In this document: one piece after another, positions 9,202-24,670 of the stretch
How the letters are laid out: every line of letters starts with the position of its first letter
Numbering within the stretch: the first letter of the stretch is position 1
DNA from: an uncultured Clostridia bacterium
GTDB taxonomy: Bacteria; Bacillota; Clostridia; TANB77; CAG-465
NCBI GenBank assembly: GCA_944387375.1
Contig: CALXEQ010000007.1
Coordinates: 1-64,000, forward strand
DNA length: 64,000 nt
Direction: 5' to 3'
Notes under the pieces: model-generated
Database searches by the model: none
What the model saw: the letters and a program-made list of their open reading frames with translations, nothing else
Told to the model about the DNA's origin: nothing
Translations under genes and position numbers: made by a program

Positions 9202-9228
9202 TTAGCACTCAAATTTATTAAGTGCTAA
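9202..9228 (-). promoter_or_regulatory. CIRCE operator
   Basis: TTAGCACTC, nine bases, then AAGTGCTAA match the CIRCE consensus (TTAGCACTC-N9-GAGTGCTAA) with one mismatch. It lies 13 bases upstream of the hrcA start and downstream of a sigma-A promoter, the standard position for HrcA repression. Confidence 0.95.
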
Positions 9229-9360: not shown

Positions 9361-10680
9361 TTATTTATTTAAAACTTTTAAGATTTCATCTGTTGTTAAC
9401 ATTTTTTGTTCACCAGAGATCATGTTCTTTAATGTATATAATCCTTTTTCCTTTTCCTCTTGACCTATTATAATAACATATGGTATATCTAAATTATTTG
9501 CATAAGAAAATTTATTCTTTATTTTAGTATCTTCCTTATATATTTCATTTGGTATATTATTTTCTCTTAGTATATTAGAAATTTTTACTGCTTCTTCAAT
9601 TCCAACCCCCATTGCTATTATACCTGCCTTAGATATAGACTTTTTAGAAGATTTTAAAAGTCCTAATTCCTTTAAATTATAAAATAATCTTGTAAGTCCT
9701 ATTGAAATTCCAACTCCAGGTAAATTTTTCTTTGTGTAGTAACTTGCTAAATTTTCATATCTACCACCAGAGCAAATACTTCCTATTGACTCATATCCAA
9801 CTAAATTTGTTTCATATACTGTTCCAGTATAATAATCTAGTCCTCTTGCAATAGTTAGATCCACTACAAAATTTTTTTCTTCTACATTAAATAATCTTAC
9901 ATATTTTACTACTTCTTTAAGTTCTTCTAATCCCTCTTTAAATATCTCACTATTAAAATTTAATCTTTCAAGTTTTTCTAACTTTTCATCAGTTGCTCCA
10001 TCAATTTTAAAAAATTGCTCTATTTTATTTATTTTCTCATCTGATAAATTTAATTTTGAAAGTTCTTCTTTTACTGCCTCCATTCCTATTTTTTCTAATT
10101 TATCTATTATTATTAATATCTCAGTCTTTTTATCTGATATATTTAGTTCATCAAATAGCCCATTTAATATTTTTCTATTATTAATCTTTATAACAAAATT
10201 ATCAAAACCTAAATTCTTAAAAGTTGTGTAAATAACGCTTGGAATTTCTGCATCATTAATTATACTTAATTTTCCATCACCTATAATATCAATGTCACAT
10301 TGATAAAACTCTCTATATCTTCCTTTTTGTGCTCTTTCTCCTCTAAATACTTTACCTATTTGATATCTCCTATATGGAAATGTTAAATCATTATAATATT
10401 GAGCTACGTACTTTGCAAGTGGTACAGTTAAATCAAATCTTAAACTTAAATCTTTATCTCCTTTTTTAAAAGAATAAATTTGTTTTTCTGTTTCTCCACC
10501 AGCTTTAGCAAGTAATACCTCTGATGATTCAATTATTGGTGTTTCTTCTGGCAAAAACCCATATAATTCATAAGTATTTTTTATTGTATCTAACATTTCA
10601 TTAAATTTTATTTGATCTTGTGGTAATAACTCCATAAATCCACTTAATGTTCTTGGCTCTACTCTTTTTATATTTTCCAT
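9361..10680 (-). CDS. hisS: Histidyl-tRNA synthetase
   Basis: The 439-residue class II synthetase charges tRNA-His. Motif 1 and 2 regions (FDLTVPLAKYVAQYYND, YREFYQCDIDIIGDG), the histidine-specific signature ARGLDYYTGTVYE, and motif 3 (GVGISIGLTRLFY) are all present. The C-terminal anticodon-binding domain follows (GIIAMGVGIEEAV to the end). ATG at 10680 has GGGAG 6 bases upstream. It is expressed from a promoter at 10908-10936 through a leader that encodes a His-rich peptide and ends in a terminator, so transcription is probably attenuated by histidine supply. No T-box motif is present in this leader. Confidence 0.97.
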   Translation of the reverse strand: MENIKRVEPRTLSGFMELLPQDQIKFNEMLDTIKNTYELYGFLPEETPIIESSEVLLAKAGGETEKQIYSFKKGDKDLSLRFDLTVPLAKYVAQYYNDLTFPYRRYQIGKVFRGERAQKGRYREFYQCDIDIIGDGKLSIINDAEIPSVIYTTFKNLGFDNFVIKINNRKILNGLFDELNISDKKTEILIIIDKLEKIGMEAVKEELSKLNLSDEKINKIEQFFKIDGATDEKLEKLERLNFNSEIFKEGLEELKEVVKYVRLFNVEEKNFVVDLTIARGLDYYTGTVYETNLVGYESIGSICSGGRYENLASYYTKKNLPGVGISIGLTRLFYNLKELGLLKSSKKSISKAGIIAMGVGIEEAVKISNILRENNIPNEIYKEDTKIKNKFSYANNLDIPYVIIIGQEEKEKGLYTLKNMISGEQKMLTTDEILKVLNK

Positions 10681-10727: not shown

Positions 10728-10760
10728 TAAAAAAACACGTAAGTTTTTGGCCTTACGTGT
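10728..10760 (-). terminator. Attenuator terminator in the hisS leader
   Basis: ACACGTAAG (10760-10752) pairs with CTTACGTGT (10743-10735), and seven U residues follow. The hairpin lies about 50 bases upstream of hisS and downstream of its promoter, so it must be bypassed to express hisS. Confidence 0.8.
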
Positions 10761-10848
10761 AAAATATATCACACATCAGGCACAACAAACTATGCCTGAG
10801 CTAAATTTCATTTTAAAGCGCAGACATAGAATAAATATGATGATGTGC
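10755..10848 (-). promoter_or_regulatory. Competing RNA pairings of the hisS attenuator
   Basis: Three alternative pairings can be read in the minus-strand RNA. AUGUGUGA (10776-10769) can pair with UUACACGU (10762-10755), which would disrupt the terminator. GCACAUCA (10848-10841), which overlaps the histidine codons, can pair with the same segment (10778-10771) and release the terminator. UCAGGCA (10799-10793) pairs with UGCCUGA (10782-10776). A ribosome stalled on the His codons would mask the first segment and favour read-through. The switch model is inference from base complementarity. Confidence 0.6.
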
Positions 10849-10878
10849 CAATGTGTTATTAAGTTTTACTATATTCAT
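10813..10878 (-). CDS. His-rich leader peptide of hisS (21 residues)
   Basis: An ATG at 10878 with AAAGGAG (10894-10888) nine bases upstream opens a 21-codon frame ending in TAA at 10815-10813. Its centre reads TLAHHHIYS: codons 12-14 are three consecutive CAT histidine codons (10845-10837). It lies between the hisS promoter and the attenuator terminator. By analogy with his-operon leader peptides of Proteobacteria it would sense charged tRNA-His by ribosome stalling. The peptide itself probably has no other function. It is too short for routine gene callers. Confidence 0.8.
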   Translation of the reverse strand: MNIVKLNNTLAHHHIYSMSAL

Positions 10879-10907
10879 TTTATTCTACTCCTTTCAAATA
10901 CACAATT

Positions 10908-10936
10908 ATTATACACTAGAATAGAATAATTGTCAA
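10908..10936 (-). promoter_or_regulatory. Sigma-A promoter of the hisS leader
   Basis: Consensus TTGACA (10936-10931), 17 bases, consensus TATAAT (10913-10908). It partly overlaps the stop codon of the preceding gene. Confidence 0.85.
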
Positions 10937-22567: not shown

Positions 22568-24325
22568 CTATTTAGACAAATTTTTAATTTCCTCTTCAAC
22601 TTTTTCAATAAATTTTTCTTTTTCTATACTTCCAAGATCTCCTTTATCTCTTGAACGCATACTAACTTTATTTTCTTCAACTTCTTTATCTCCAATAATT
22701 AACATATATGGTACTTTTTGAAGTTGAGCTTCTCTTATTTTATATCCCATTTTTTCTTCTCTATCATCAAGTTCTACTCTTATTCCTTTAGATGACATTT
22801 CTTTCATTAATTTTTTAGCATAATCTACATGTCTATCTGCTATTGTTAATATTTTTACTTGTACTGGTGCAAGCCAAGTTGGAAATGCTCCTGCATATTG
22901 TTCAATTAATATTCCAATAAATCTTTCGATACTTCCAAATATAACTCTATGTAGCATTACTGGTCTATGTTTTTCTCCATCCTCGCCAATATAAGTTAAA
23001 TCAAATCTTTCTGGCATTTGGAAATCCAATTGAATTGTACCACATTGCCAACTTCTTCCTAGACAATCTTTAATATGAAAATCTATTTTTGGACCATAGA
23101 AAGCGCCATCTCCTTCATTAAGTTCATATTTCATATTTAAATCTTTTAAAACTTTTTTTAGAGCTCCTTCTGCCATCTCCCATTGTTCATCTGACCCCAT
23201 AGAGTCTTCTGGTCTTGTTGATAATTCAATTTCATATTCAAATCCAAATATACTATATACTTCATCAATTAATTTTATTACATTTGAGATTTCTTCCTCA
23301 ATTTGTGATGGCAAGCAGAATATATGAGCATCATCTTGTGTGAAGCATCTAACTCTAAATAATCCGTTTAATTCTCCAGATTTTTCATGTCTATGTACAA
23401 GTCCAAGTTCTCCAGCTCTTATTGGTAAATCTCTATAAGAATGCATAGAATTTTTATATACTAGCATTCCTCCTGGACAGTTCATTGGTTTTATACCATA
23501 GTCTGTATCATCTATTTTTGTTGTATACATGTTTTCTTTATAATGATCCCAGTGACCTGAACGATGCCATAATTCTTCATTTAAAATCATTGGAGTTTTT
23601 ATCTCTACATATCCATGTTCTTTATGTATTTTTCTCCAAAAATCTTCAAGTACATTTCTTAACTCCATACCTTTGGGTAGGAAGAATGGAAAACCAGGAC
23701 CTTCTGGTGCTATCATAAATAATTCTAACTCTTTTCCTATTTTTCTATGATCTCTTTTTTTAGCTTCTTCTAATTCTTCTAAATATTTTTCTAAGTTTTC
23801 TTTATTTTCAAAAGCTGTTGCATATATTCTTTGTAGCATTTTATTTTTTTCATCTCCACGCCAATATGCACCTGTAATATTCATTAGCTTAAATACTTTT
23901 ACTGCTTTTGTGTATAGCATATGTGGACCTGTACATAAATCTACAAATTCACCTTGTTTGAAAAATGATATTTCTTCATCTTCTGGTAAATCATTAATAA
24001 GTTCAACTTTATATGGCTCATTTCTTTCTTCCATTAATTTTAAAGCTTCTTGTCTTGGTAATTTAAAACTTTCTATTTTTAAATTCTCTTTTATTATTTT
24101 TTTCATTTCAGCTTCTATTTTTTCTAAATCAGCTTCAACAAGTTTTGGCTCTACATCAATATCATAATAAAATCCATTTTCTATTGCTGGACCTATTGCA
24201 AGTTTTGCTTGTGGAAATAATCTTTTTATCGCTTGTGCCATTATGTGAGATGCTGTATGTCTTAAAACTTGTAAATCTAAATCTCCTTCATATACTTCAT
24301 TATTACTATTTACATATTTACTCAT
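22568..24325 (-). CDS. thrS: Threonyl-tRNA synthetase lacking the TGS domain
   Basis: The 585-residue class II synthetase charges tRNA-Thr. It begins directly near the editing domain (HTASHIMAQA, the HxxxH editing site), followed by the SAD domain (FVDLCTGPHM). The catalytic core has MNCPGGMLVYK with the zinc Cys, VHRHEKSGELNGLFRVRCFTQDD motif 2, and HRPVMLHRVIFGS near motif 3. The anticodon-binding domain is at the C-terminus. Typical bacterial ThrRS has about 640 residues; the missing part is the N-terminal TGS domain. ATG at 24325 has AGGAGTG upstream. It is controlled by a T-box leader. Confidence 0.96.
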   Translation of the reverse strand: MSKYVNSNNEVYEGDLDLQVLRHTASHIMAQAIKRLFPQAKLAIGPAIENGFYYDIDVEPKLVEADLEKIEAEMKKIIKENLKIESFKLPRQEALKLMEERNEPYKVELINDLPEDEEISFFKQGEFVDLCTGPHMLYTKAVKVFKLMNITGAYWRGDEKNKMLQRIYATAFENKENLEKYLEELEEAKKRDHRKIGKELELFMIAPEGPGFPFFLPKGMELRNVLEDFWRKIHKEHGYVEIKTPMILNEELWHRSGHWDHYKENMYTTKIDDTDYGIKPMNCPGGMLVYKNSMHSYRDLPIRAGELGLVHRHEKSGELNGLFRVRCFTQDDAHIFCLPSQIEEEISNVIKLIDEVYSIFGFEYEIELSTRPEDSMGSDEQWEMAEGALKKVLKDLNMKYELNEGDGAFYGPKIDFHIKDCLGRSWQCGTIQLDFQMPERFDLTYIGEDGEKHRPVMLHRVIFGSIERFIGILIEQYAGAFPTWLAPVQVKILTIADRHVDYAKKLMKEMSSKGIRVELDDREEKMGYKIREAQLQKVPYMLIIGDKEVEENKVSMRSRDKGDLGSIEKEKFIEKVEEEIKNLSK

Positions 24326-24436: not shown

Positions 24437-24664
24437 ACAAAAAATGTACCCCTACAGACACATTTTTTGTCTATAGGGGTACAATATATTTATTGCACGG
24501 TTCCACCCTAATTTTTAACTTAATTTATGATTGTACGAAATCAACGGTAGTTTCCTACTAACTCCGGGGTAGTCTTCGGTAATATCTTATTAAAATTGGC
24601 TTCCAGCCCATGACCAATTCTCTCTTGTAACAGTGTTAAAACTTACTCGTCCCATCAACGTTAT
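24437..24664 (-). ncRNA. T-box leader of thrS
   Basis: The transcript contains the conserved T-box AGGGTGGAACCGTGC (24509-24495) and a strong terminator hairpin. The terminator arms are 24468-24483 and 24445-24460, with a U-run following. Upstream is a Stem I region with an AGUA loop-E motif, AGAGAG, and a distal GGUCAUGGGCUGGAAGCC loop. GAAGACUACC in the 3' side of the specifier loop contains ACU (24573-24571), a threonine codon followed by A, and overlaps ACC; ACU is the better specifier candidate. Uncharged tRNA-Thr should stabilise the antiterminator and allow thrS transcription. Confidence 0.93.
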
Positions 24665-24670
24665 GTAATA

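Follow-up and report, generated by a model that had tools for sequence, protein, structure and literature searches.

A histidine leader-peptide attenuator predicted ahead of hisS in an uncultured Clostridia bacterium, with diverged relatives before other histidine genes

Aminoacyl-tRNA synthetase genes of Firmicutes are usually controlled by T-boxes, and the 64,000-nucleotide stretch of clostridial DNA analysed here (the window) raises the question of what governs hisS, the histidine--tRNA ligase gene. A preliminary description of the window, made from its letters alone, had proposed that hisS is preceded not by a T-box but by a classical attenuator, i.e., a promoter, an AAAGGAG site, a 21-codon frame with a run of CAT codons at 10845-10837, competing hairpins, and a terminator. 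Checked against the sequence, each of these features lies on the minus strand exactly where it had been placed, and the two pairings named there (10848-10841 with the segment termed D below, and 10776-10769 with segment E) both exist. The parts of the locus, all on the minus strand, are as follows.

10936-10729, minus strand: whole element, comprising promoter, Shine-Dalgarno site, leader ORF, competing hairpins, and intrinsic terminator ahead of hisS
10908..10936, minus strand: sigma-70-type promoter TTGACA-17-TATAAT, 12/12 consensus bases (-35 TTGACA at 10936-10931, spacer of 17 nt, TATAAT at 10913-10908)
10888..10894, minus strand: Shine-Dalgarno site AAAGGAG, 9 nt upstream of the leader ATG
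10813..10878, minus strand: leader ORF, encoding MNIVKLNNTLAHHHIYSMSAL, 21 codons plus TAA
10841..10848, minus strand: segment A, GCACATCA, predicted to pair with D when not covered by a ribosome
10837..10845, minus strand: putative sensor, three consecutive His codons CAT CAT CAT, CATCATCAT
10821..10829, minus strand: segment B, CTATGTCTG, starting 7 nt past the last His codon; partner C
10815-10813, minus strand: leader stop codon
10790..10799, minus strand: segment C, TCAGGCATAG; predicted partner B (stalled ribosome) or D (ribosome at stop)
10769..10783, minus strand: segment D, GTGCCTGATGTGTGA; partners C (-12.4 kcal/mol), E (-14.3 kcal/mol), or A
10750..10762, minus strand: segment E with loop, TTACACGTAAGGC; antiterminator 3' arm (with D) and terminator 5' arm (with F)
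10735..10743, minus strand: segment F, CTTACGTGT; terminator 3' arm (E:F, -11.9 kcal/mol)
10760-10735, minus strand: intrinsic terminator stem, followed by T7
10729..10735, minus strand: T7 run, expected 3' end of a truncated transcript
9361..10680, minus strand: hisS, histidine--tRNA ligase (TIGR00442, 399.4 bits, cut-off 286.75), the gene predicted to be regulated

Judging from the promoter, the transcript would start at about 10902. Promoter-like hexamers are visible at the corresponding place in the same-genus loci, and AAAGGAG is invariant across a 12-sequence alignment of same-genus leaders; one intrinsic terminator was found, against 0.1 expected in shuffled sequence. On the other side of hisS, a perfect CIRCE element (TTAGCACTC-N9-AAGTGCTAA, window 9202-9228) lies between hisS and hrcA-grpE-dnaK.

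We consider it very probable that the hisS 5' leader senses charged histidyl-tRNA and works as a ribosome-mediated transcription attenuator, a reading supported by related genomes, by covariation, by folding with a masked ribosome, and by the histidine-related roles that the downstream genes have in common. The marks by which a leader-peptide attenuator is recognized were found as follows: (i) a translatable short ORF with its Shine-Dalgarno site lies downstream of a promoter, (ii) CAT CAT CAT precedes hisS and, in relatives, likewise hisZ-hisG, pepD, and a polar amino-acid transporter, (iii) antiterminator and terminator pairings are mutually exclusive and show covariation, and (iv) in silico, the position of ribosome stalling picks the fold, an effect that is weak in several elements.

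The predicted switch is made of six segments, A to F, in which B:C and D:E constitute the antiterminator, whereas C:D and E:F constitute the terminator configuration. B:C joins 10829-10821 (CUAUGUCUG) to 10798-10790 (CAGGCAUAG) over 9 bp at -14.3 kcal/mol, and the helix resumes beyond one mismatch for 3 more bp. C:D joins 10799-10792 to 10783-10776, the first part of D, at -12.4 kcal/mol, and A:D joins 10848-10841 to 10778-10771 over 8 bp at -9.4 kcal/mol; in the free-RNA fold of one related locus (L161), an 8-bp A:D is built from different bases. D:E pairs as GCCUgAUGUGUGA/UUACACGUaAGGC, in which 10776-10769 is contained within D and to which a GCCU/AGGC extension belongs, and the AGGC of the terminator loop is therefore part of the antiterminator. 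At -14.3 kcal/mol the full D:E helix thus beats E:F (-11.9 kcal/mol), and the D:E that is left once C has captured the GCCU part (-6.9 kcal/mol) loses to the terminator. The preliminary description had recognized A:D and one antiterminator arm, but had missed B:C, C:D, and the GCCU/AGGC extension of D:E.

Were His-tRNA(His) scarce, the leading ribosome would stall on CAT CAT CAT and cover A while B stayed free; B:C would then form, freeing D for E, and D:E would keep F from completing the terminator, such that RNA polymerase would continue into hisS. Read-through under low charged tRNA(His) would thus yield more HisRS. With ample His-tRNA, the ribosome would reach the stop codon at 10815-10813 and cover B, allowing C:D and then E:F to form, and transcription would cease at about 10729. 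Should the leader go untranslated, A:D would form and termination would again be favoured. The stall, the termination at 10729, and the response to histidine are those that we infer from this arrangement. Elsewhere among the relatives, genes for histidine synthesis, uptake, and dipeptide cleavage would be controlled by elements of this kind.

Folding with and without a ribosome footprint had been proposed as a check, and it produces the predicted switch in the window element and in most others. The ribosome was represented by a mask of about 30 nt, the standard assumption for its footprint, placed over each of the three His codons in turn; this masking was carried out for 31 elements and, alongside shuffled controls, for 17. 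When the window element is folded with a ribosome stalled on any of its His codons, B remains wholly or largely uncovered; as F emerges from the growing transcript, D holds about 7.8 of the 9 bases of E, and E:F pairing is close to 0. With the ribosome at the stop codon, B is covered, C:D forms, and E:F (5.4) appears as F emerges; without a ribosome, D is held by A:D and E:F likewise appears. Averaged over the 17 elements, the stall-minus-stop difference in E pairing comes to 7.5 bases, whereas shuffles give 0.87 +/- 0.80 (0/100 as high). Taken singly, the window element has its stall-minus-stop difference reached by 15 of 100 shuffles, and its stalled D:E pairing by none. Little or no switch is seen by masked fold in two of the f3 hisS elements (L191, L193) and at loci L194, L158, and L204. 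Stall position is thus predicted to select the fold in the window element and most others, chiefly through B:C versus C:D and D:E versus E:F, with A:D coming into play mainly when the leader carries no ribosome. Classical attenuation, as first proposed, is in outline the best reading, but the masking of A, which had been taken as the deciding step, is not predicted to be the main discriminator.

The upstream regions of hisS in related genomes, a comparison that the preliminary description had also called for, bear this architecture out. The leader is present in 13 same-genus genomes, the window's own counted, where HisS is 69-100% identical to that of the window, and the leader pattern yields one match per genome, upstream of hisS. 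All 13 loci checked retain the Shine-Dalgarno site, the ATG, the three His codons, the stop codon, all arms, the terminator, and the T run. Residues 2-9 of the leader peptide vary freely among them, whereas the ORF, HHH, and the stop codon are constant; at its C-terminus the peptide, LAHHHIYSMSAL, hardly changes within the genus, and the codons of this constant part overlap RNA segments A and B. Same-genus leaders show no change in arms B, C, D, E, or F, and arms and loops are conserved beyond what pairing alone demands. In G008, a more distant member of the genus with HisS 60% identical, a clearly different leader (MKVITINTHVHHHG) has the same architecture, with A:D, B:C, C:D, D:E, and E:F made largely from changed bases.

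These comparisons weigh against the idea that the short ORF encodes a functional small protein, e.g., a His-rich metal-binding peptide, from a transcription unit of its own, with hisS read by leakage. A genuine Shine-Dalgarno site and ATG, a strong terminator, and the near-constant LAHHHIYSMSAL would suit such a protein, but its N-terminal half varies freely, its constant C-terminal codons overlie segments A and B, and in some other elements the peptide ends directly after HHH (MLNIRKYLKLHHH, MKVITINTHVHHHG) while the RNA arms persist; competing pairings, moreover, would serve no need of a protein. We deem this highly unlikely.

Not every genome of the genus has the leader before hisS. In G012, hisS lacks it and the element instead precedes the next gene, which encodes a PepD-type beta-Ala-His dipeptidase (TIGR01893, 386 bits, cut-off 343.75); this pepD leader scores 58 bits (E 3e-10) with a model, R1, built from 12 same-genus leaders. 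With filters off, R1 also gives 37 bits to the G008 hisS leader and 29 bits to leaders found before an MBL-fold hydrolase gene (see below). At the G012 locus (L158 3090-3204), the attenuator lies directly downstream of the leaderless hisS, as if shifted to the neighbouring gene. A different HisRS type (TIGR00442 about 470-498 bits; L108-L121) is carried by 11 of 28 genus genomes; those of its loci that were viewed have a short upstream region with the promoter adjoining the gene and no leader, and no T-box was detected in the 10 loci scanned. Genomes with this second HisRS type are neither support for the attenuator nor a refutation of it.

Across the order, 385 genomes were searched with a pattern combining His codons with AGGCA...TGCCT, which matched in 42 genomes versus one match to a reversed control. 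Some of the 42 were coding and were set aside, and three pattern matches (L205, L206, L208) were rejected as coding or unrelated. Accepted elements precede (i) hisS in three genomes of another family (G367, G281, G196), (ii) hisZ, followed by hisG, in G261 (HisG, PF01634; HisZ, TIGR00443 at 243.6 bits, just below the cut-off of 271.65), (iii) the gene for a polar amino-acid ABC transporter substrate-binding protein in nine genomes (G375, G245, G282, G271, G297, G187, G221, G371, G202), with a transporter permease adjoining it at the loci examined, and (iv) an MBL-fold hydrolase gene (PF00753) in G165 and G286 (L203, L204). All of them possess a Shine-Dalgarno site, a leader peptide of 13-21 residues whose HHH lies close to the end, the B:C and C:D helices, and a terminator followed by a T-rich stretch; most have D:E as well. 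Two elements stand in series in G221 (L201 683-960) and apparently in G371 (L202 509-801), each with its own leader ORF and terminator; the second leader of G371 reads H-Y-H instead of HHH.

Covariation rests on these diverged elements because the arms are invariant within the genus; the compensatory changes that the preliminary description had proposed as a test are present, but only outside the set of near relatives. Three consecutive His codons occur in 31/31 family elements examined, a feature that the search pattern required of those not preceding hisS. The AGGCA/TGCCT cores of C and D were also required by the pattern, and independent evidence therefore comes from the flanking columns and the other helices only. 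When B:C columns are counted with the first base of AGGCA set to 0, 17 of the 31 elements have A-U and 13 have G-C at column +5, 18 have G-C and 7 have A-U at column -1, and column +7 takes four different kinds of base pair. Each subfamily assembles its D:E and E:F helices from sequences of its own.

A pattern variant that tolerates CAC gave no clear new elements, and 307 further genomes of the class, outside the order, gave matches that by inspection were only coding-looking; the family was therefore not seen beyond the order. Among 80 hisS loci from named genomes, most are without a His leader, and only L020-L022 and L098 have one. In G261 (L194 700-3201), the attenuator, hisZ, and hisG are followed by an ORF that matches no Pfam family and, to the eye, looks like a DapF-type epimerase; hisD and hisA/hisF were not found in that assembly. 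One transporter attenuator, at L202 484-625, bears sub-threshold Rfam likenesses to RF02634 (Enterococcus sRNA EF3314_EF3315), with 32.7 bits out of 100, and to RF04312 (trpB motif), with 32.2 bits out of 59; these families may themselves be leader-peptide attenuators that were catalogued as sRNAs or motifs.

The same family bears on whether a real terminator might answer to some other signal, either a general slowdown of translation or HisRS binding to its own leader, with the His codons incidental. Loops and arms conserved within the genus beyond the needs of pairing leave room for a protein ligand. We nevertheless give this idea very little credence: three His codons lie shortly before B in every confirmed relative, and most targets are histidine genes (hisZ-hisG, pepD, the transporter), at which HisRS autoregulation would be unexpected.

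As to the T-box itself, scans for RF00230 gave nothing at hisS, whether over the window with E allowed up to 1 or over the leader with E allowed up to 10. An identical scan does find the T-box that the preliminary description had reported for thrS, at 24472-24667 on the minus strand (66 bits, E 4e-12, short of the Rfam gathering score of 93), upstream of a gene (22568-24325) that is ThrRS by its domains and lies 14 kb from hisS. A divergent T-box reading uncharged tRNA(His) directly, for which one might cite this thrS match and the T-box of Bacillus hisS (PMC2965389), is thus scarcely credible, given the empty scans, a leader in which no TGG-containing antiterminator bulge is seen, and a translated ORF, Shine-Dalgarno site, and His-codon run for which a T-box has no need. 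In the hisS leader, other Rfam families gave nothing above threshold, only sub-threshold matches; RF00514 (His_leader) went unmatched there at E up to 10 and likewise, at E up to 1, in 12 loci that carry diverged elements.

Histidine leader-peptide attenuation is classical in enterobacteria, and in the Salmonella his attenuator B:C and D:E pairing for antitermination is set against C:D and E:F pairing for termination. The window leader resembles the Salmonella/E. coli his leader (RF00514) in its run of His codons within a leader peptide and in its six-segment logic, yet it has no Rfam match to that family, and no sequence relation was found. It also differs in host phylum, in having three His codons rather than seven, in preceding hisS rather than the his operon, and in pairing A with D rather than with B. 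Attenuation of a synthetase gene by its own amino acid through a leader peptide is known from pheST/pheM of E. coli, from which the present case differs in amino acid (histidine, not phenylalanine), in phylum, and in sequence.

Within Firmicutes, Naville and Gautheret (2010) predicted a His leader-peptide attenuator for Bacillus hisS* and hisZ (PMC2965389), which is like the present element, compared by description, in being a predicted His attenuator before a Firmicute hisS paralogue or hisZ; there, however, hisS* is an extra copy and the main hisS keeps its T-box (PMC2965389), whereas the leader in the window precedes the only hisS found in the genome. Ashniev et al. (2022) described candidate his-operon attenuators, with three to five His codons in short leader peptides, in the B. 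cereus group, Peptostreptococcaceae, Lutispora, and Erysipelotrichales (PMC9413887). Those candidates share with ours the short His leader peptides, the terminator/antiterminator hairpins, and an occurrence in Firmicutes including clostridia, but they concern his biosynthesis operons only, with hisS unmentioned, whereas our elements occur in uncultured gut Clostridia and would control hisS, pepD, a transporter, and an MBL-fold hydrolase in addition to hisZ-hisG. The preliminary statement that no description was known for clostridial hisS needs qualifying, in that His leader peptides had already been predicted in Firmicutes (PMC2965389, PMC9413887); the mechanism is therefore known. No description of a His attenuator for hisS, pepD, or the transporter in Clostridia was found among the open-access papers searched, and within that literature the lineage and most target genes appear new. 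Given a Salmonella-like working, no match to RF00514, and no such clostridial description found, what is added is hence a new lineage and a wider target set.

How the element came to be distributed is reflected in the HisS tree, where leader-bearing genes fall in three places; four label changes are needed, at least three of them forced by well-supported branches, and a single origin with simple inheritance is therefore not supported. The tree is consistent with the element having been gained, lost, or moved, as opposed to inherited as a single copy. Because no hisD (in a search that also missed a B. subtilis control) and no HisA/HisF above the family cut-off were found in the window's genome assembly, which is 97% complete, the organism is probably, if not firmly, a histidine auxotroph. 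It would be sensible for such an organism to make more HisRS and to step up uptake and dipeptide cleavage whenever charged tRNA(His) is in short supply.

Ultimately, our analysis predicts that a housekeeping synthetase in Clostridia is placed under leader-peptide attenuation, where a T-box would be the textbook expectation; such attenuation has long been taken as a proteobacterial device, and the same genome uses a T-box 14 kb away. The family supplies a signature by which genes responsive to histidine might be recognized in the sequences of uncultured gut bacteria, and its tandem attenuators and many natural variants offer material for learning how ribosome position chooses between RNA folds. 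Whether one attenuator family amounts to a dispersed, mobile histidine regulon in the order, its six-segment cassette having moved among hisS, hisZ-hisG, pepD, a histidine-type ABC transporter (at times as a tandem pair), and an MBL-fold hydrolase, is in our estimation evenly balanced. If it does, translation would perform the task carried out by T-boxes or the HisR repressor in other Firmicutes, and the MBL-fold hydrolase (PF00753), for which guilt by association already suggests a histidine-related role, would be marked as a histidine-related enzyme.
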